Source: Acidimicrobiia bacterium
GTDB lineage: Bacteria; Actinomycetota; Acidimicrobiia; Spongiisociales; Spongiisociaceae
Direction: 5' to 3'
Assembly (NCBI GenBank): GCA_021296345.1
Contig: JAGWAN010000006.1
Location: 17,944 to 71,427, forward strand
DNA length: 53,484 nt
Part shown: positions 16,467 through 44,231 of the stretch, piece after piece
How the letters are laid out: the number at the start of each line of letters is the position of its first letter
Numbering within the stretch: the stretch's first letter is position 1
The notes under the pieces: model-generated
Told to the model about the DNA's origin: nothing
The model's input: only the letters and a program-made list of their open reading frames with translations
Database searches by the model: none
Program-made: the position numbers and the translations under genes

Positions 16467-16557
16467 TTCCGCGTCCGGGTCAGCCGGCCAGCGGTCTTCT
16501 GCCCGGAACCATAGGTGTCATGCAGACCCCAACCGGTTCGGGAGGACGGACCACTGA

Positions 16558-16563
16558 TATGCT
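16558..16563 (+). promoter_or_regulatory. -10-like box placed for a leaderless trpD transcript
   Basis: TATGCT at 16558-16563, preceded by TGA, ends seven bases before the trpD ATG at 16571. No Shine-Dalgarno sequence lies between them. Transcription would therefore start at or next to the ATG, giving a leaderless mRNA, which is common in Actinobacteria. There is no convincing -35 hexamer. Confidence 0.4.
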
Positions 16564-16570
16564 TCCCGCC

Positions 16571-17605
16571 ATGACGGACTTCTCCTGGTCGGACGTGCTG
16601 GGCACGATCTCCCGTGGCGCCGACCTGAACCGAACCCAGGCCCGCCAGGCCATGCGCCAGGTAATGGGTGGCCTCGCCTCGCCTGCCCAGATTGCCGGCC
16701 TGATCGTGGCGCTCCGCATGAAGGGAGAGACGGTGGAGGAGATGGGCGGCATGGTCGACGGCATGGTGGAGGCTGCGGTCCGGGTCGACCTCGGCGACGC
16801 CGATCCCGTGGACATCGTGGGCACCGGAGGCGACCGCTCCGGTACGTTCAATATCTCCACCACAGCCTCCTTCATAGCGGCCGGTGCCGGCATACCGATC
16901 GCCAAGCACGGCAACCGGTCCATGTCATCCAAGTGCGGCTCGGCCGACGTGTTGGAGTCCCTGGGGGTGATCATCGACCTGCCGGCCGATAGGAACCGCC
17001 GGCTGTTCATGGATACGGGCTACGCCTTCTTCCTGGCGCCGGTCTACCACCCGGCCATGCGTTTCGCCGGGCCGGTCCGCAAGGAGCTCGGGATTCCCAC
17101 GGTCTTCAATTTCCTGGGCCCGTTGAGCAATCCTGCCGGGGTGCGCAAGTACGCGCTAGGGGTGGCGGACGGGCGCATGGCCGAGCGCATGGTTCGCGTG
17201 CTGAGCCTCCGCGGGTCAGAGCGAGCCCTCGTCTTCCACGGCTCGGACGGTATGGACGAGCTCACCCTGAGCGGCCCTTCCGTGGTTTGGCGGCTTGACG
17301 GTGGCCAGGTGTCGAGCACCGAAGTGTCGCCCCGGGAGGTGGGTCTGAGACCGGCGCCCGTGTCCGATCTCCTGGGGGGAACGGCCGAGGTGAATGCGGG
17401 CATCACGCGCCGCGTTCTCGAGGGCGAAGCCGGTCCCCCTCGAGATGTCTCCCTGCTGAACGCGGCGGCTGCCATCGCCGCATCCGGCCTTACGGACGAC
17501 CTGGCCGAAGCGGTTGCCGTGGCTGCCGAGTCGATCGACAGAGGTGCGGCCAGCGAGGTCTTGGACAGGGTGGTTGCACGGAGCCGGGAGCTGGCAGGGG
17601 ACTGA
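16571..17605 (+). CDS. trpD: Anthranilate phosphoribosyltransferase
   Basis: TrpD joins anthranilate to PRPP in the second step of tryptophan synthesis. The 344-residue protein has the PRPP/Mg motif GTGGDRSGTFN (84-94), the anthranilate-site block KHGNRSMSSKCGSADV (112-127), and the NFLGPLSNPAG segment. Length and order are standard. ATG 16571 is chosen because the N-terminal helix begins there and a -10 box lies at the right place for a leaderless transcript; earlier in-frame ATGs at 16520 and 16559 add unconserved residues. No other trp gene adjoins it. A 7-bp hairpin (17604-17626, GATTCCG/CGGAATC) follows the stop. Confidence 0.95.
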   Translation: MTDFSWSDVLGTISRGADLNRTQARQAMRQVMGGLASPAQIAGLIVALRMKGETVEEMGGMVDGMVEAAVRVDLGDADPVDIVGTGGDRSGTFNISTTASFIAAGAGIPIAKHGNRSMSSKCGSADVLESLGVIIDLPADRNRRLFMDTGYAFFLAPVYHPAMRFAGPVRKELGIPTVFNFLGPLSNPAGVRKYALGVADGRMAERMVRVLSLRGSERALVFHGSDGMDELTLSGPSVVWRLDGGQVSSTEVSPREVGLRPAPVSDLLGGTAEVNAGITRRVLEGEAGPPRDVSLLNAAAAIAASGLTDDLAEAVAVAAESIDRGAASEVLDRVVARSRELAGD

Positions 17606-17677: not shown

Positions 17678-18412
17678 ATGAGAGGCCGTAATCGAGTAAT
17701 TGTTGCCATCCTGGCCGCCGTTATCGCGCTGGCGTGTGGAGGCGGCTCGGGTGAGGAGGTCGCATCCGAACCGGCGGACCCGGTCACCACCACAGCAGCC
17801 ACGGCTACCACTTCGGCAGCCACTGCCGCCACTACGGCAGCCACTACGGCAGCCACGGCCGCCACCGAAGAGTCCGGTTCCACCGTTTCGGAGGATCTGC
17901 CTGCCACTACAACCGCGGCTTCCGAGGAGCAGCCGGTTGAAGAGCCGGTGACCACCACCGTTCCCGCGAAGACCGCGGTCACCGAACCTGCCGCCGTTCC
18001 CGACGGCCCACCTGTCCCGTCCGTGACCCTGGAACTGGACGACGGGACCGTCTTCGTCACGACCGAAGCCACCCGGCCCGTCCTCTACCTATTCTGGGCG
18101 GAGTGGTGACCGGCATGTCGACGGGAGTTGCCCGTCGTGGATTATGTGGCCGCCGAGTTCGTCGGCGAGGTGGACGTGATCGCGGTCGCCTGGGCCTCGA
18201 CGTACGAGAAGACGGCCTCCGCCGCCCGCGGTTTCCTGAACCGGGGGGCTACTCGCTGGCTGCTGGATGAGGACGATTCGGTGTTCGCCGCCTTCGAGGT
18301 GACCTACCAGCCGGTCGGGGTGTTCGTGGTGGGCGGTGTCGAAGTCAAGCGCTGGTTCGGTTCCCTCCCCGAGCAGGAACTCCGCCAAGCCTTCACGGAC
18401 GCCCTGGCATAG
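17678..18412 (+). CDS. Thioredoxin-fold lipoprotein, candidate selenoprotein (in-frame TGA as Sec144)
   Basis: The frame from ATG 17678 gives a lipoprotein signal (LALAC lipobox, Cys20), a Thr/Ala-rich linker (about 25-115), and a TlpA/ResA-like thioredoxin domain. The domain reads YLFWAEW, then TGA at 18107-18109, then PACRRELPVVDYV, and continues without shift to the cis-proline segment YQPVGVFVV and a TAG stop at 18410-18412. The TGA falls exactly on the first cysteine of the CPAC active site, and Cys147 is kept. A SECIS-like hairpin follows. Read through, the protein is 244 residues and a complete fold; read as stop, it would be a useless linker. I infer selenocysteine insertion. Alternatives are a recent nonsense mutation or a sequence error. 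The protein would act outside the membrane as a thiol or peroxide oxidoreductase. Confidence 0.75.
18107..18137 (+). promoter_or_regulatory. Putative bacterial SECIS element following the TGA codon
   Basis: After the TGA at 18107-18109 and nine bases of spacer, CGACGGG (18119-18125) pairs perfectly with CCCGTCG (18131-18137) around the loop AGTTG. The loop starts 16 bases after the TGA and has a G in its second position. Bacterial SECIS elements are stem-loops right behind the UGA, inside the coding region, with the apical loop about this far away and a G among the first two loop bases. Sequence, spacing and loop all fit. Confidence 0.65.
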
Positions 18413-20524: not shown

Positions 20525-21931
20525 AGGGGCTTATAGATCTGAGTGCCCGAGGGCTGGTTCTGTCATTGGGTGTCAGTACAATACGGGTCTATGGGCAGTT
20601 CTGTGTTGACAGTGAAGGTGAAGGGCAACTGTTCGAAATCGCAGCATCGGTGTCTTGTTCAGCTGTTCGCTATGTCGGCGGAGATGTACAACGCGTGCCT
20701 CGAATCGTGGAAGGGCACCTACGAGTGGTGGAAGCGCCACCACAACCCGGAGACGGAGGAAGTTCCCGGCTGATCTGGTCTATTCCCGCTACGACCTGAT
20801 GCGGATGTTCACAGGAGTCCGCAAGGACCGTCCTGAGTGGGCTGCTGTGTCTGTGAATGTGGGACGTGGTTTGATCTGCCGTTTCGACCGGGCGGTCAGT
20901 TTCTTCTACAAGCGATGCGAGGCTGGGAAGACGCCGGGGTATCCCCGTTTCAAGCCGGCGTCCCGTTGGCGGTCGATAGAGGTCCCGGACGCGTCTGCTT
21001 CGATGATCGTTGCCCCTGGGACCGGCGGGAACGGGTCTGCCAAGTGGTGGCGCCTGGCGGTGAAGGGAGTTCCCCGTATTAGGTTCGAGGACCGGGGCGG
21101 TCGAATACAGACCGCTGTGGCCGCCGGGGCCAGGGTGGGCGAGATACGGCTGGTCCGTACGGTGCTACGGGGTGAGCTTCATGTGGTGCTCCGGTTCCCA
21201 CCTTCGGAGACCACCGGGGACCGCACCCCTGTTTTCGCGGTGGGTGTTGATAAGGGTCTCCGCTCCCGGATGATCCTGTCCGACGGCTCCCGGATCTCGG
21301 CCCGGCTCCCGGACAGGGCAGACATCAAGAGGAAACAGCGCGCGCTGTCCCGGGCTGAGCAGGGTTCACGGTCCCGTGCCAAGAAAGGCAATGCTCTGGC
21401 CAGGGCATGGAGAAAAGAGGCCGAAAAGGCCAGGATGGCCGACATCCGCCTAGCCCACCGCCTCGTCTGCTCCTAAGATGCCATGGCCGTAGAAGACCTC
21501 AACGTGGCCGGGATGCTCCGCTCCCGACTGTTCCCACACAAGATGGCTCAACAGCGCTGGGTGGCCTTCGATCAGATACTGGAACACAAAGCCGCGAAAG
21601 CTGGTGTCCTGTACGCGAAGGTCGACCCTGCCAACACCACCACCGAATGCTCCGTCTGCGGGCATCGCCGGCGGATGCCCCTCGGAACACGTGTCTACGA
21701 CTGCGGGAAATGTGGGATGGTGCGGACAGGGACCTCAACGCTGCCAGGAACATATGCGCCCGGGCCGGATGGTCATGGGGCCGGGTGGGGCATCAACCCG
21801 GTGTAGCGCGCACAACAAACTTCTGCCAGGAGACCGAACTCCCCCCAACCGGGGACGGACGCGGGCAGACGCTACAGAAATGTATCACCTGAAACCGTCC
21901 CACCCATGGGCACCCAGGCATATAAGCCCCT
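20525..21931 (+). mobile_element. IS605-type element carrying only a decayed tnpB
   Basis: A degenerate tnpB is enclosed by AGGGGCTTAT at 20525-20534 and its inverted copy ATAAGCCCCT at 21922-21931. The overlapping string CCCTAACAAA occurs as a direct repeat at 20515-20524 and 21928-21937. There is no tnpA. I take the element to span about 1.4 kb between the P450 start and the amidohydrolase stop. IS605-type elements do not normally have long inverted ends or make target duplications, so the end assignment is tentative. The 3' part and right end are where a guide (omega) RNA would be encoded in an active element. Confidence 0.65.
20591..21892 (+). pseudogene. tnpB pseudogene (RuvC-like RNA-guided nuclease family)
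   Basis: The TnpB sequence can be followed across three lesions. The first part (from MGSSVLTVKVKG) shifts frame near 20765; the middle part runs to an in-frame TAA at 21474-21476 right before AMAVEDLNVAGM; the last part shifts again near 21716, between CGKCGMV and DRDLNAARNI. All three RuvC acidic residues remain (VGVDKGLR, VEDLN, DRDLNAAR), as do the zinc-ribbon cysteines CSVC and CGKC. Intact motifs together with several lesions point to fairly recent decay. An ordinary protein cannot be made from it as written. Confidence 0.88.
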
Positions 21932-39167: not shown

Positions 39168-39767
39168 TTATGCCCGGTCTGGCCGGGACTGGCGGAATTC
39201 GCCTACCTGCCGCGATTCGATTGCTTGGCCGGTCAGGATCCGCTCCAGGGCGCCGGTGAGGGTGAGGGCGTCGGTCTCGCCGAGGAACTTCCCGACGATC
39301 CTGCCCCCGGAGATGAAGACGGTCTCTGGGACGCCGAAGATCCCGAACTCGATGGCGGCGCGGGAACCCGGATCGGACAGGTATTGGGTGGAGTCACCGC
39401 GGCCTAACTCGTCCAGGAAAGCGATGGCGCGAGCCGGGTCGTCCTGGAAGGCAACTCCCAGGAACCGTACGGATCGGTCGTGGTAGGCGTCGGCCGTCGA
39501 GATGAGATCGGCGTGCTCGTTACGGCATTGCAGGCACCAGGAGGCGAAGAAGTTGACCACCACCACGTCGTGCGAGGCGCTCAGATCGGCCAGATTCAAG
39601 GAACCGTCACCGTCCAGATCGGGGAGGGTCAGGTCGGGAACCGCCGCGCCGACGACCGGTGACGCGCTCTGGCCGGCGCCGTCCCCGAAGCGGGCCGCGA
39701 AGACGGACACGGCCAGGCCGATTACCACCAGCCCGGCTACGAGCAGGTAGCGCCCGCGGGAGTTCAT
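39168..39767 (-). CDS. ccmG: CcmG/DsbE-type thioredoxin of cytochrome c maturation
   Basis: A 199-residue membrane-anchored thioredoxin-fold protein with one N-terminal span and the reduced CxxC in ASWCLQCRNEH. The WCxxCRxEH pattern is typical of CcmG, which reduces apocytochrome c or the CcmH disulphide outside the membrane. The cis-proline is in FGVPETVFI. It is the last gene of the ccm operon; its start overlaps the TPR gene by four bases. Contrast with the Sec candidate at 17678, which has TGA at the equivalent cysteine. Confidence 0.88.
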   Translation of the reverse strand: MNSRGRYLLVAGLVVIGLAVSVFAARFGDGAGQSASPVVGAAVPDLTLPDLDGDGSLNLADLSASHDVVVVNFFASWCLQCRNEHADLISTADAYHDRSVRFLGVAFQDDPARAIAFLDELGRGDSTQYLSDPGSRAAIEFGIFGVPETVFISGGRIVGKFLGETDALTLTGALERILTGQAIESRQVGEFRQSRPDRA

Positions 39768-40537
39768 CCGCCGGACCCCGCCAGCCGCCGGGCTTCGGCA
39801 ATCGTCATCTCGATAGCCTCCCGGGTCCCTTCGGGAAGGTATTCCTCGGCCAGCAAGGGTTCCAGATGTTCCAGGGCGCCGGTAGCGTCCTTCTCTGCCA
39901 GCAGCAGCAGTCCGAGGAACAGGTGCGCCTCGGCGTAGCCGTCGTCCACGGCCAGAGCTTCATCCAGATAGGACCGGGCTATTCCGGCATTGCCGGATTC
40001 GAAGGTCATCCAGCCGATTCTTGCCAGGGCGCGTGACCGGCGGGTGCGGTCGAGGGTTCCGTCCAGCGCGGCCAGGTAGTGGGGGAGGGCATCCGAGAAC
40101 TCCCCGGCTTCGAAATACCGGTCGGCCAGGCTGAGGCGCATGGCGGCGATCCCGGGTACATCGGGGTTGGCGGCGATGACCGCTTCCATCTGGTCGTTGG
40201 TCACCTCGGAGAGGTCCACCGGCGTGTCCACGTTGCCGGTCACGAAGCCGCCCTCCCTCGGCCGGATGGCGAGGTAGGCGGTCACCGACACCGCGATCAC
40301 GGCGCCGATCAAGAGCAACGTTCCCGTCAGGCGCCGCCCTGATCGGCCGGGTCCCGCGTGCTCCGGGCCTCGGTCCTCCGTCCCGGCGTCGATGGAGTCC
40401 AGTTCCTGCCGGTACCGCTCGATCAGCCTCCCGGCGGTGGCGGCGTCGAGCTCCTCCTCGGCCAGCTGCCGGCGGACGTCCCGAATGTCCGCCTCGATCA
40501 GGGCCCGACGCCGACGTTCCGGTGGCCCGTCACCCAT
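39764..40537 (-). CDS. ccmI: CcmI/CycH-like TPR protein
   Basis: A 257-residue protein with an N-terminal cytosolic arginine-rich part, one transmembrane span (about residues 70-92, TGTLLLIGAVIAVSVTAYLAI) and a C-terminal region of tetratricopeptide-like helix pairs (LADRYFEAGEFSDALPHYLAAL, ARIGWMTFESGNAGIARSYLDEAL, LFLGLLLLAEKDATGALEHL). CcmI/CycH delivers apocytochrome c to the haem ligase CcmF-H. The order ccmF-ccmH-this gene supports the assignment, although TPR proteins are hard to name by sequence alone. It overlaps the upstream ccmH by about 8 bases. Confidence 0.72.
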   Translation of the reverse strand: MGDGPPERRRRALIEADIRDVRRQLAEEELDAATAGRLIERYRQELDSIDAGTEDRGPEHAGPGRSGRRLTGTLLLIGAVIAVSVTAYLAIRPREGGFVTGNVDTPVDLSEVTNDQMEAVIAANPDVPGIAAMRLSLADRYFEAGEFSDALPHYLAALDGTLDRTRRSRALARIGWMTFESGNAGIARSYLDEALAVDDGYAEAHLFLGLLLLAEKDATGALEHLEPLLAEEYLPEGTREAIEMTIAEARRLAGSGG

Positions 40538-40928
40538 TGGCAGGCTCCGGTGGCCGGATCAGGCGCCGGGCTGCGAGCCAGGCGCCGGCAATAGCCACGC
40601 CGGCCGGCAGTACCCAGAGCAGCACCGTCGTGCCCGAGAAGCGGGGATCGAGCCGGATGCCCTCGAACCTGGCCTCCAGGTAGTCCAGGATCTGGTCGTC
40701 GCTCCAGCCCTCGTCCACCTTTTCCTCCACGAACCCCAGGATGTCGTTGGCGTAGGGCGTGGGGGAGTCGACGATCGATTCCCCCTGGCAGACCGGGCAC
40801 CGGATCCGGGCGCCGAGCGCCTCCACGCGGTCCCGGTCGCTCGGCTCGCCGACCACGAGGCCCCACCCGACGATCCCGGCCAGGATCAGGGTGGCGACGC
40901 CGGCCAGGATGGCCCGGCGGTCAGCCAC
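40530..40928 (-). CDS. ccmH: Cytochrome c-type biogenesis protein CcmH/NrfF-like
   Basis: A 132-residue thiol protein with an N-terminal span, the family motif RCPVCQGESI (LRCxxCQxxSI), the helix EKVDEGWSDDQILDYLEARF, and a second hydrophobic span near the end (GTTVLLWVLPAGVAIAGAWL). CcmH keeps apocytochrome cysteines reduced before haem attachment. It overlaps ccmF and the TPR gene by 8 bases each, indicating tight cotranslation. Confidence 0.9.
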   Translation of the reverse strand: MADRRAILAGVATLILAGIVGWGLVVGEPSDRDRVEALGARIRCPVCQGESIVDSPTPYANDILGFVEEKVDEGWSDDQILDYLEARFEGIRLDPRFSGTTVLLWVLPAGVAIAGAWLAARRLIRPPEPANG

Positions 40929-42948
40929 GGCCGGCTCTCGCGGTCTGCCTTCTCCGACCCGCTACGGACGAGAGGGAGAAGCCGGCGCCCGCGGCTGTCA
41001 CCAGCCCACCCAGCCATACCATCCACTGGAGCGGGTAGCTCCACACATCGGCCACCAACCCCGAGCTGTCGAGCCGGGTGAGCGAGATATAGAGATCTCC
41101 CCGTGGCGTCGAGTACACCGCGGGGGTGACGACCGGGGGGATGCCGGTGCCGTAGCTGTTGAGGCTCGGAGACATTTCGGTCACCGCTTCGCCGTCCCGC
41201 GACACGTCCAAGCGGACGCCCAGGACATCCCGGTTCGGCTCGGAGCGCGAGAAGGGGGCCCGGTAGGCGATCTCGTAGCCGGCGAAGGAAGCCGTTTCGC
41301 CCGGGCTCAGCGCGATGGACCCTGACCCGGCGTGGTTGGCAGAGACCGCTATTCCCACCGCCAGGATCGCCACCCCGATATGGGAGATCTGCCCGCCCCA
41401 GTAGCCGGGATCACGTCTCATCAGGTAGCCCGCCGTCGCCATCGATCCCTGGCCCGTGGAGGTGGCGCGCTTGCGCACCAGGATCAGCAGGTGCCGGCCG
41501 ATGGCCGAGACCACGAACACCGCCAGCAGCACCACCACGATCACGTGCCGGTTGCGGCTCACCAGGAGAACCAGCAGGGCCGCCAGCCCCAGGGCGATCC
41601 GCATCGGCATCCGTACTCGTTCCCACAGCACCTGGCGGCGGGCCACCCGGAACGGTGTGACCGGCCCGATGCCCATGGCCAGGATCAGGCAGTAGGAAAG
41701 GGGTACGGCCCACCGGTCGAAAAACGGCCGGCCCACGCCCACCGTGCTGCCCTGGAAGGCTTCCACGGCCAGCGGGAACAAGGTGCCCGACAGCACCACG
41801 AAAGCGAACACGGCCAGGAGCAGGTTGTTGAGAAGGAAGGCGCCCTCCCGGCTGGCGAGCGAGTCGAGCCGGGGAGCGCTGCCCACCAGGTGGATGCGGG
41901 TGGCGAACAGCGCCAGGGACCCGGCCAGGATCACCGCCAGGAACGCCAGCAGGACGGGGCCGATGGACGACTGGGTGAAGCTGTGCACCGAGGCGATAAC
42001 GCCCGAGCGGGTCAGGAAGGTCCCGAGGATGGTGGCTGCGAAGGCGCCGATCACGAGCACGTAGTTCCAGGACTGGAGCACGCCCCGGCGCAGCTGGACC
42101 ACGGACGAGTGGATGAAGGCGGTGGCCAGCAACCACGGGATGAAGGAGGCGTTCTCGACCGGGTCCCAGGCCCAGTATCCGCCCCAGCCCAGGACCTCGT
42201 AGCTCCACCAGGCGCCCAGCACGATGCCGGTGGTGAGGAATCCCCAGGCGGTGAGGGTCCAGGTGCGGGTCGTCCGGAGCCAGGTCCCCGCGTGGTCGAC
42301 GGTGGCCAGCGAGGCGATCCCGACCGCGAACGGCACGGAGAAGCCCACGTATCCCACGTAAAGGACGGGCGGGTGGACAGCCATCAGGATGTGGTTCTGG
42401 AGCAGGGGATTGGCGCCCCGCCCGGCGGCGGGAAGGTCGACGGCGGACCAGGGCGCCCAACCAGACACGGCGCACCCGGCGGCATCGGCCGCCGCGGTGC
42501 AGACCGCGAAGGGGTTGGCGACAGTGGCCATCAGACCGAACCAGAAAACGGCCAGCATCCCCAGCACGGACAGCGTCCCTCCGGCCAACGGGTGGTCGCG
42601 CCGGTACATGACCCGGACCGCCGCCGCGGTGAATGCCGCCAGCACCAGCCCCCACAGGACGATCGAACCCTCGAGCGCAGCCCATCCGGCGGCGATCGTG
42701 AAGATCAGAGGTGTTCCGGTCCGATGGTTGTCGGCGATATACGCTATGGAGAAGTCACCGGCGAGGAGGCCGATCTCCAGCACCAGCATGGCGGCCGCAG
42801 CTCCACCTAGCAGCCACAGCACGGGACCTTTCATCCGCTCCATCGGTACGGTGCCTCGACCCGCCAGGGCGGGTAATCCCCTCCACGCCACCGCCATGGC
42901 CGCTCCGAGAGCGACCAGGATCGAGCCGAGTCCCAGCCAGGCGATCAT
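40921..42948 (-). CDS. ccmF: Haem lyase CcmF
   Basis: A 675-residue multi-span membrane protein with the haem-handling WWD-type motif WGGYWAWDPVENASF and conserved flanking histidines. It has about 14 hydrophobic spans, as in CcmF, which joins haem from CcmE to apocytochrome c with CcmH. Length and motif are normal. It starts one codon after the end of ccmE (overlapping ATGA) and overlaps ccmH by 8 bases. A long frame on the opposite strand over it is only antisense. Confidence 0.95.
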   Translation of the reverse strand: MIAWLGLGSILVALGAAMAVAWRGLPALAGRGTVPMERMKGPVLWLLGGAAAAMLVLEIGLLAGDFSIAYIADNHRTGTPLIFTIAAGWAALEGSIVLWGLVLAAFTAAAVRVMYRRDHPLAGGTLSVLGMLAVFWFGLMATVANPFAVCTAAADAAGCAVSGWAPWSAVDLPAAGRGANPLLQNHILMAVHPPVLYVGYVGFSVPFAVGIASLATVDHAGTWLRTTRTWTLTAWGFLTTGIVLGAWWSYEVLGWGGYWAWDPVENASFIPWLLATAFIHSSVVQLRRGVLQSWNYVLVIGAFAATILGTFLTRSGVIASVHSFTQSSIGPVLLAFLAVILAGSLALFATRIHLVGSAPRLDSLASREGAFLLNNLLLAVFAFVVLSGTLFPLAVEAFQGSTVGVGRPFFDRWAVPLSYCLILAMGIGPVTPFRVARRQVLWERVRMPMRIALGLAALLVLLVSRNRHVIVVVLLAVFVVSAIGRHLLILVRKRATSTGQGSMATAGYLMRRDPGYWGGQISHIGVAILAVGIAVSANHAGSGSIALSPGETASFAGYEIAYRAPFSRSEPNRDVLGVRLDVSRDGEAVTEMSPSLNSYGTGIPPVVTPAVYSTPRGDLYISLTRLDSSGLVADVWSYPLQWMVWLGGLVTAAGAGFSLSSVAGRRRQTARAGRG

Positions 42949-43364
42949 GGCCCGGCGGTCGGTACCTGGTAGGTTCCCTCGCCATCCACGGCCCGGTACT
43001 GCTCATCGTGGTTGATCAGCAGGGTATCGGACCGGAACGTGTCGCCTTCCCAGGCCCCCTCGACGACCACCCCGATTCCGGGACGGAACAGTTGGGGGAC
43101 GGCGCCGGCATGCGAGACGGCGATCGAGACGGCGCCGTCACCGACCGTGAACCGGACGCCGTCGTCGGTCCCCTCGAGCCAGTCCGCCTCGACCAAGCCC
43201 CCCAGACGGAACCGGTAGCCGGGCTCCTGGTCGGCTCGCTGATCGACCGCCTCGGAGGGTGTCAGGTAGTAGACGGCGTTTTCGCTGAGGCCCCCCCACA
43301 CCAGGAAGCCGACCACGATCGCCAGGAGTGCCCCTGCCGGGATCAGGATGTGGCGACGGTTCAT
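42945..43364 (-). CDS. ccmE: Haem chaperone CcmE
   Basis: A 139-residue protein with an N-terminal anchor (RRHILIPAGALLAIVVGFLVW) and an OB-fold. The covalent haem-binding histidine is in LLINHDEQYRA, matching the HxxxY (HDENY) motif of CcmE. It takes haem from CcmC and passes it to CcmF. Start ATG 43364, giving MNRRHIL, overlaps the ccmD stop by four bases; a start at 43469 would add unrelated residues. Confidence 0.92.
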   Translation of the reverse strand: MNRRHILIPAGALLAIVVGFLVWGGLSENAVYYLTPSEAVDQRADQEPGYRFRLGGLVEADWLEGTDDGVRFTVGDGAVSIAVSHAGAVPQLFRPGIGVVVEGAWEGDTFRSDTLLINHDEQYRAVDGEGTYQVPTAGP

Positions 43365-43480
43365 GTCCCCGGGGGCAGGCGCCGGCGGAGTCGCCTCATG
43401 CGGAAGGCCTGGTGGCCTGCATAGATCGCCAGCACCCCATAGGCGACCAGGTAGCCGAACAGCACCCAACTACCCGCCAT
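43361..43480 (-). CDS. ccmD: CcmD-like small membrane protein
   Basis: A 39-residue protein: one hydrophobic span (WVLFGYLVAYGVLAIYAG) followed by a very basic tail (RMRRLRRRLPPGT). CcmD is a tiny single-span protein that holds CcmC and releases haem-loaded CcmE; size, topology and position between ccmC and ccmE fit exactly. It starts inside the ccmC end and overlaps the ccmE start by four bases. A start at 43549 would add 23 polar residues over the ccmC 3' end. Confidence 0.78.
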   Translation of the reverse strand: MAGSWVLFGYLVAYGVLAIYAGHQAFRMRRLRRRLPPGT

Positions 43481-44231
43481 CCCGGCCTCCGAGCCTCGGT
43501 GGGTAAACCGACGCACCGACCGGTTGCGATGTGGTGGCGGACCGGGCAACCGCCGCTTCGAGGCGGGCGATGCGGACCCGGACCGCCACCAGGTAGGCGA
43601 GGGCGGCCATGAACGCGGCCAGTGCGACGCCTAGGGGGGCGACGAAGGCGGCGTCCATGGTGCTGTTGGCCAGGTCGGGACGGATGATGGAGGGACCCTG
43701 GTGGAGGGTTCGGAACCACAGCACCGAGTAGTGCACCATCGGTACCTGCACGAAGCCCACGATCCCTAGCACGGCGCAGCGGACCGCCCGCACCCCAGGG
43801 TCTGTGATCGACCGGCGCAGGGCCAGGTACCCCAGGTAGAAGAAGAACAGCACGGCGGTGGACACCATCCGGGCATCTCCCCAGTCCCACCAGACGCCCC
43901 AGACGAAGCGCCCCCAGATCATGCCGGTTAGCAGGGTGATGGCCGTGAACAGCACGCCGACCTCGATGGCCGCCGCCGACAACAGGTCGGATGCGGGGGA
44001 GCGGCGGATCAGGTACCAGATCGCCGTCACCAGGCCGGTACCGAGAGCGATGTAGGCGGTGATGGCGGACGGGACGTGGACGAACAGCAACCGGGCAGCT
44101 TCTCCCTGGGACTCCTCGTCCGGGGCGGTGACCGACATGTATAGGCCGGCCGCCGTCAAGCACAGCGCCGCCACGCCGGTAGCGGCAATGACCCGGGATC
44201 TCGGGTGGAGGGTGGCGGCTGCGACAGTCAT
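43470..44231 (-). CDS. ccmC: Haem exporter/handling protein CcmC
   Basis: A 253-residue protein with six hydrophobic spans and the tryptophan-rich haem motif WGVWWDWGDARM (WWDWDARLT-like). CcmC loads haem onto CcmE outside the membrane. The start at 44231 puts the first span near residue 15; an earlier start at 44375 would run through the MITE-containing gap. The proposed gap to ccmB (44232-44697) is filled mainly by two nested transposon-derived repeats. Confidence 0.93.
   Translation of the reverse strand: MTVAAATLHPRSRVIAATGVAALCLTAAGLYMSVTAPDEESQGEAARLLFVHVPSAITAYIALGTGLVTAIWYLIRRSPASDLLSAAAIEVGVLFTAITLLTGMIWGRFVWGVWWDWGDARMVSTAVLFFFYLGYLALRRSITDPGVRAVRCAVLGIVGFVQVPMVHYSVLWFRTLHQGPSIIRPDLANSTMDAAFVAPLGVALAAFMAALAYLVAVRVRIARLEAAVARSATTSQPVGASVYPPRLGGRDGG

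Follow-up and report, generated by a model that had tools for sequence, protein, structure and literature searches.

The window analysed in our study, that is, the whole stretch of 53,484 nucleotides, was found to contain a predicted selenoprotein gene on the forward strand, between an upstream gene that we take, from its protein sequence, to be trpD and a downstream cluster of cytochrome c maturation (ccm) genes on the opposite strand (Table 1). The frame of the gene contained a single internal stop, the TGA, and was terminated by TAG. The residues YLFWAEW preceded the TGA and PACRRELPVV followed it, after which the frame ran on to the TAG; translation thus confirmed the earlier note, which had described one frame passing through this TGA with a CPAC-type thioredoxin site. 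The N-terminus of the frame was MRGRNRVIVAILAAVIALAC..., followed by a linker of Thr, Ala, Glu and Pro and then by the redoxin domain. A lipobox-like motif after the N-terminal hydrophobic segment was present in 80 of the 84 aligned gene copies of the Sec form, the present one included, when scored with a PROSITE-style pattern of our own. The gene product is therefore predicted to be an exported lipoprotein.

Table 1. Features of the locus, with positions counted from the first letter of the window.
Feature	Position	Strand	Evidence
Presumed trpD, upstream syntenic marker, ends in TGA	16520..17605	+	ORF list; synteny in relatives
Predicted selenoprotein gene; 244 aa if UGA is Sec; ends at TAG	17678..18412	+	Translation; MRGRNRV-like start in 9 of 10 genus members, own genome included
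Predicted signal peptide, lipobox-like ALAC at its end	17678..17737	+	Sequence; predicted lipidated Cys codon 17735-17737
Low-complexity Thr/Ala/Glu/Pro linker	17738..18007	+	Sequence; length varies among relatives
Redoxin/thioredoxin-fold domain, DsbF/ResA-like	18008..18409	+	PF08534 33.2 bits (cut-off 26.6); AlphaFold2 pLDDT 96.6; PDB 3ios, 1st9
UGA codon, first active-site position, predicted Sec	18107..18109	+	Translation; orthologue rows
Partner (resolving) Cys codon of UxxC	18116..18118	+	All 84 Sec rows have Cys
Conserved Glu of U/C-x-x-C-x-x-E-x-P	18125..18127	+	Invariant in 43-row alignment; 3 of the 84 rows have Gln; in register with Glu of DsbF
Predicted SECIS hairpin of bacterial type (7-bp stem, loop AGUUG of 5 nt)	18119..18137	+	Covariation, frozen codons, model constraints; weak alone
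ccm cluster: ccmG-like, TPR protein, CcmH, CcmF, CcmE-like, CcmC-like	39177..44087	-	tblastn extents

The TGA form was present in 41 of the 59 relatives (own genome counted), and a TGA-bearing match was found in 36 further members of the order within a 296-genome sample of the class, 35 of which were read. These counts leave out weaker stop-free hits in the order (e.g. G241, G300, G205, G038 and G286:C260) and TGA hits outside the order (e.g. G274, G079 and G183). The resulting orthologue set, chosen for holding a TGA, contained 84 gene copies from 76 genomes; the Sec-form genomes number 77, as G158 was counted from the class-sample search and stands outside the rows read. Every row contained the TGA at the identical site, FWAEW before it and a Cys three residues after it, and no second TGA was found inside the match in any of the 84 rows. 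In a 43-row alignment the domain had a mean column identity of 56%, and its active site did not vary. The flank around the TGA, whose decay in close relatives the earlier note had named as a sign against its reading, was intact in the relatives that keep the TGA. The alignment of homologues, which the note had proposed as a check, placed Cys at the TGA position in five orthologue-like rows (G041, G175, G213, G222 and G269), and G045 contained a divergent Cys paralogue (G045b) alongside the Sec form. The orthologue frames ended in TGA (38), TAG (35), TAA (8) or at a contig end (3), and TGA is also an ordinary stop here because these 38 frames and the upstream trpD terminate in it. An assembly error as the source of the internal TGA was rejected, as the same TGA recurs in dozens of assemblies.

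With the TGA read as Cys, the domain matched Thioredoxin (29.4 bits, cut-off 23.5) and AhpC-TSA (27.7 bits, cut-off 26) of Pfam in addition to Redoxin. The AlphaFold2 model given in Table 1 was made on the 43-row alignment with Cys in place of Sec. In a Foldseek search against the PDB, the best match was DsbF of Mycobacterium tuberculosis (3ios; TM 0.87, 31% identity), followed by chains of ResA (best TM 0.91) and, at rank 7, by MPT53 (1lu4; TM 0.81). In the profile alignment, the WCxxC-x-x-E-x-P motif and the later conserved Pro were in register with DsbF, which shares the W-C-P-T-C-x-x-E-x-P alignment and differs in having Cys where the present protein has UGA. By its working the protein would be a TlpA/ResA-like extracytoplasmic oxidoreductase, as its modelled fold, the WCxxC-x-x-E motif and the later Pro align with solved members. 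It is nevertheless not filed with ResA, DsbE, TlpA or StoA, because it falls below their curated NCBIfam cut-offs (29 of 170, 25 of 123, 32 of 230 and 33 of 210 bits, respectively), and the 11 NCBIfam models listed at E up to 0.01 contained no selenoprotein model. ResA is an extracytoplasmic reductant of apocytochrome c, and CcmG/DsbE is a thiol-disulfide partner in cytochrome c maturation. The likeness to Bacillus ResA (1st9, 1su9) reached TM 0.90-0.91 for the best chains, and the ccm synteny points the same way; ResA differs in having Cys instead of Sec, while the present protein scores below the ResA cut-off and has CcmF and CcmH genes nearby in relatives. As for CcmG/DsbE, a separate ccmG-like gene with its own Cys form was present in the ccm cluster of the same genome, and the DsbE model was missed as given above.

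The hairpin was formed by the arms CGACGGG (18119-18125) and CCCGTCG (18131-18137) around the loop AGTTG (18126-18130), with a spacing of 16 nt between TGA and loop. The published bSECIS model has a stem of 4-16 bp, a loop of 3-9 nt with a G in the first two loop positions, a spacing of 16-37 nt and an MFE of at most -7.5 (given in the accessible part of PMC13188914). The values found here, 7 bp, 5 nt, AG, 16 nt and -12.5 kcal/mol for 40 nt, lie within these limits. The loop started with AG in 82 of the 84 rows and with AA in 2. Taken by itself, the hairpin of the window was unexceptional: 44 of 200 dinucleotide shuffles folded as well (z -0.75), and a bSECIS-compatible stem of at least 7 bp, G-U allowed, followed 10% of the 1259 TGAs of the window. 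The TGA with its protein context goes beyond chance, unlike the hairpin alone. The SECIS-like hairpin of the earlier note had the geometry described, whereas the weight given there to the hairpin of one sequence was too great, as it becomes convincing only by comparison.

When 41 orthologues and 15 paralogues (56 rows) were compared, 86.5% of the cells paired and 25 double changes were counted, where shuffles gave 4.8; in the 84 orthologue rows the figures were 90.4%, 28 and 8.4, respectively. The number of double changes was reached by 0 of 500 shuffles in either set. The double changes of the 84 rows were almost wholly in the pairs 14-30 and 15-29, and the outer pair 13-31 did not form in 34 of the 80 distinct rows. 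When the pairs that show any double change were counted instead, the result was not significant, as 34 of 500 shuffles reached it in the 56 rows and 92 of 500 in the 84 rows. When the 3' arm was slid by +3, 67-70% of the cells still paired, but only 5 and 2 double changes were counted; in the present register, 8 of the 84 rows kept 5 or fewer of the 7 pairs. The codons of the stem were found to be frozen. The Leu at +7 was TTG or TTA in 77 of the 84 rows and never CTG, which is otherwise the most frequent Leu codon of these domains, whereas TTG or TTA made up 138 of the 1007 other Leu codons of the domain. The Arg at +5 was CGG in 82 and the Pro at +8 was CCC in 78 of the 84 rows. The five Cys forms contained CTC, CTG or ATG at +7 and were left with 2 to 5 of the 7 pairs; the hairpin is eroded in the Cys forms.

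The genome of the host (2.83 Mb, 82 contigs, 95% complete) was found to contain the complete Sec machinery, namely selA (435 bits) adjoining selB (314 bits) on contig C55, selD (371 bits) and selC. The tRNA-Sec scored 76.6 bits with RF01852 and was called tRNA-SeC with the anticodon tca by ARAGORN. The selD gene contained an in-frame TGA of its own, at GGGU-TSKLG. The contig of the window, C37, contained no sel gene above cut-off, which bears out the statement of the earlier note that the window has no selA, selB, selC or selD; the genome search suggested there recovered all four on other contigs. The selenocysteine reading of the TGA, the central claim of that note, is supported by these genes, by the TGA kept in relatives and by the aligned Cys homologues. 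A SelA homologue of another genome (G290:C24:10358-11668) also contained one in-frame TGA.

SelA was above cut-off in 70 of the 77 Sec-form genomes. Among the others, G001 and G252 had a strong tRNA-Sec hit, G056 and G308 contained SelA fragments, and G044, G051 and G057 were without SelA at a completeness of 56-69%. A strong tRNA-Sec hit was taken as RF01852 at 57 bits or more, checked in the 59 relatives and in 16 genome handles, which cover part of the 77 Sec-form genomes; the hits of about 40-56 bits are probably tRNA-Ser. G039 contained the Sec form and SelA, yet its best tRNA-Sec hit was 46.6 bits. Four of the Cys-form genomes (G041, G269, G175 and G213; 93-97% complete) contained no SelA, and their best RF01852 hits were 43-52 bits, whereas G222 went against the simple pattern, with the Cys form despite SelA and a tRNA-Sec hit of 72.5 bits. 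The presence and absence of SelA (70/7 in Sec-form against 1/4 in Cys-form genomes) gave a Fisher p of 0.0009 with kinship ignored, a nominal value that overstates the case because the rows are related. Of the 18 relatives that lack the TGA form, 15 also contained SelA, so loss of the machinery mostly does not explain the absence of the gene. No match to the gene at E 1e-9 was found in G048 and G210, which have no SelA. In the tree, which was built on few columns and has an arbitrary root, the three Cys rows of g35 were nested in supported Sec-containing clades (98/94, 97/88), and G269 and G041 grouped with family f8 rows of the Sec form; the branch of G041 there was long and unresolved. We read this as at least two changes, probably running from Sec to Cys.

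The gene taken to be trpD was upstream on the same strand in 64 of the 85 rows whose flank reached 1 kb or more, tandem copies counted singly. In the window, the ccm cluster was 21 kb downstream of the selenoprotein gene, and CcmF was recognised by Pfam among the ccmG-like and CcmF pieces scanned; the names CcmG and CcmE are our assumption, made from position. In the clusters of relatives, Pfam recognised CcmH and CcmF as well as a Cytochrom_C_asm protein that we take to be CcmC, while the TPR protein was below the cut-offs. At least 13 of the genomes, read with flanks of unequal length, had ccm genes of the TPR/CcmH type near the gene, on its downstream side and on the other strand, with the Sec form in G010, G011, G013, G016, G030, G034, G046, G055, G154, G259 and G275 and the Cys form in G041 and G175. 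The link was not universal, being seen in 7 of the 13 loci (L127-L139) for which 9-10 kb was read. A ccm hit in the flank was found in 31 of 81 orthologue rows, two of which (G219a and G219b) were same-strand hits on a tandem copy. The claim of a ccm link rests on the 13 genomes with TPR/CcmH-type genes, because what the ccmG query hit some 700 bp downstream may be a different gene of TlpA-like type. The cluster of the window lies about 20 kb from the gene-adjacent position shown by the 13 relatives. The stretch between the gene and the cluster contained overlapping ORFs at 20655-21892, which presumably resemble a transposase of the TnpB/IS200-IS605 type. A DsbD_TM protein was found elsewhere in the host genome.

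Other thioredoxin-like genes with an in-frame TGA were also observed. The host contained a second one (L094, G000:C1:70181-70486; FWSPFUETC). In L079, L080, L081 and L082 (of G009, G004, G003 and G013, respectively), thioredoxin domains with an in-frame TGA (WUPTC, WUPYC) followed S-layer-homology-like repeats in the same frame; Pfam found SLH together with Redoxin or AhpC-TSA in L079, L080 and L081, and no S-layer homology selenoprotein was found in the open-access papers searched. The genus g34 contained three tandem TGA-containing thioredoxin-like genes after trpD (L091, L092, L093 and L125), apparently by local duplication. Two further TGA-containing thioredoxin-like families were present in the order, one with FLTHWUPQC-like sites and the hairpin in a shifted register (L072, L073 and L074), the other with FWAPHUPTC-like sites (L070, L071 and L075-L078).

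The gene very likely encodes a selenoprotein, because 76 genomes keep the UGA at a Cys site and four sel genes are present in the genome; that this UGA encodes Sec in a protein of the DsbF/ResA type has, in our estimate, a probability of roughly 0.92. A nonsense mutation in a decaying gene would agree with the truncated and downstream ORFs of the mechanical ORF listing and of the protein database, but it is hardly credible when the TGA is kept with intact flanks in 84 rows and the domain downstream of it has stayed as conserved as given above, with an invariant active site; a pseudogene was refuted by this conservation of the TGA and of the downstream protein. That the frame continues beyond the TGA would also be expected if these bacteria read TGA as one of the ordinary amino acids. 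Such a change of code, contradicted by TGA serving as the stop of 38 of the 84 orthologue frames and of the neighbouring trpD in the same genomes, and by the want of a second TGA inside any match, is just as negligible. It is very improbable, if slightly less so, that the UGA is a true stop between two separate proteins or is read through by a near-cognate tRNA without Sec. Possible internal TTG or GTG starts do lie downstream; a split would, however, cut through CxxC within what is predicted to be one domain, TTG and the neighbouring stem codons are frozen alike, and the Cys relatives are single ORFs.

With Sec at the UGA, SelB carrying the Sec-tRNA would bind the predicted hairpin 3' of the codon and insert Sec at the first position of a U-P-A-C active site, where it would act as the attacking residue; the Cys three residues on would resolve the selenenylsulfide. 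Anchored outside the cytoplasm, the protein would exchange electrons with protein disulfides as DsbF or ResA does. The flow would probably be reducing and probably be fed by the DsbD/CcdA-type membrane protein of the genome, and thiols close to the machinery that matures cytochrome c are its likely targets. Sec incorporation itself, lipidation, the direction of electron flow and the targets are all stated here as expectations from sequence, and for a reducing role near ccm, suggested by synteny, we see about an even chance. The strongest competitor, which we hold to be somewhat less than evenly probable, accepts the insertion of Sec and makes the protein a peroxidase or a general defence against oxidants, with no part in cytochrome c maturation. 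It is favoured by the modest AhpC-TSA and Redoxin matches, by the 50 of 81 orthologue rows without a ccm hit in the flank and by the paralogous TGA-containing thioredoxins elsewhere, whereas the UxxC site in a DsbF/ResA fold favours disulfide exchange, and ccm genes beyond ccmG were nearby in 13 genomes.

Selenoproteins of the UxxC kind have already been listed as 'Redoxin family protein' (PF08534) and 'thiol-disulfide isomerase-like protein' (cd02966) in the accessible part of PMC13188914. By description, these families share with the present gene a Sec-first UxxC in a thioredoxin fold and PF08534 as the best Pfam match; they differ in that no lineage, lipoprotein or ccm link is given for them in that part, and the terms Actinobact, Actinomycet, Acidimicrob and lipoprotein were absent from the main text of the paper. 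Trx-like and Prx-like selenoproteins are named among known marine families in the accessible text of the GOS paper (PMC2398784). The present protein is thus very likely a selenoprotein of the UxxC thioredoxin-like kind, a kind already known. A paper on the actinobacterial order UBA5794, perhaps the same order, mentions selenate reduction, and its accessible text contained no selenoprotein (PMC12008989). No account of the present gene was found in the open-access papers searched, taken without supplements. In the protein database, 59 of the 64 hits of a domain query were 78-94 aa long, with proteins over 234 aa outside its length window, and a full-length query that admitted 134-427 aa returned no full-length record and two upstream halves. 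Four records were opened: two downstream halves, one of them named 'hypothetical protein', one upstream half ending in FWAEW and one full-length Cys form.

It would follow that Acidimicrobiia hold a large and deeply conserved selenoprotein lineage, which the searched protein database contained as halves only. A wider picture, which we offer as speculation and consider rather unlikely as a whole, is that cytochrome c maturation in this order has a branch that depends on selenium, in which a Sec lipoprotein by the ccm operon would keep the thiols of apocytochrome c (or of CcmG/CcmH) reduced, and in which lineages losing the Sec machinery would swap Sec for Cys while the SECIS dissolves. The natural swaps from Sec to Cys, with erosion of the hairpin and mostly loss of SelA, would offer a ready comparison for the role of Sec in extracytoplasmic redox. 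Aerobic bacteria rarely keep selenoproteins according to the accessible part of a 2026 review (PMC13188914), and Sec users are about evenly aerobic and anaerobic according to that of PMC5029168. A lipoprotein of thioredoxin type that is retained throughout an order near ccm genes would bear on this question of selenoproteins in aerobes, if the hosts are aerobic.
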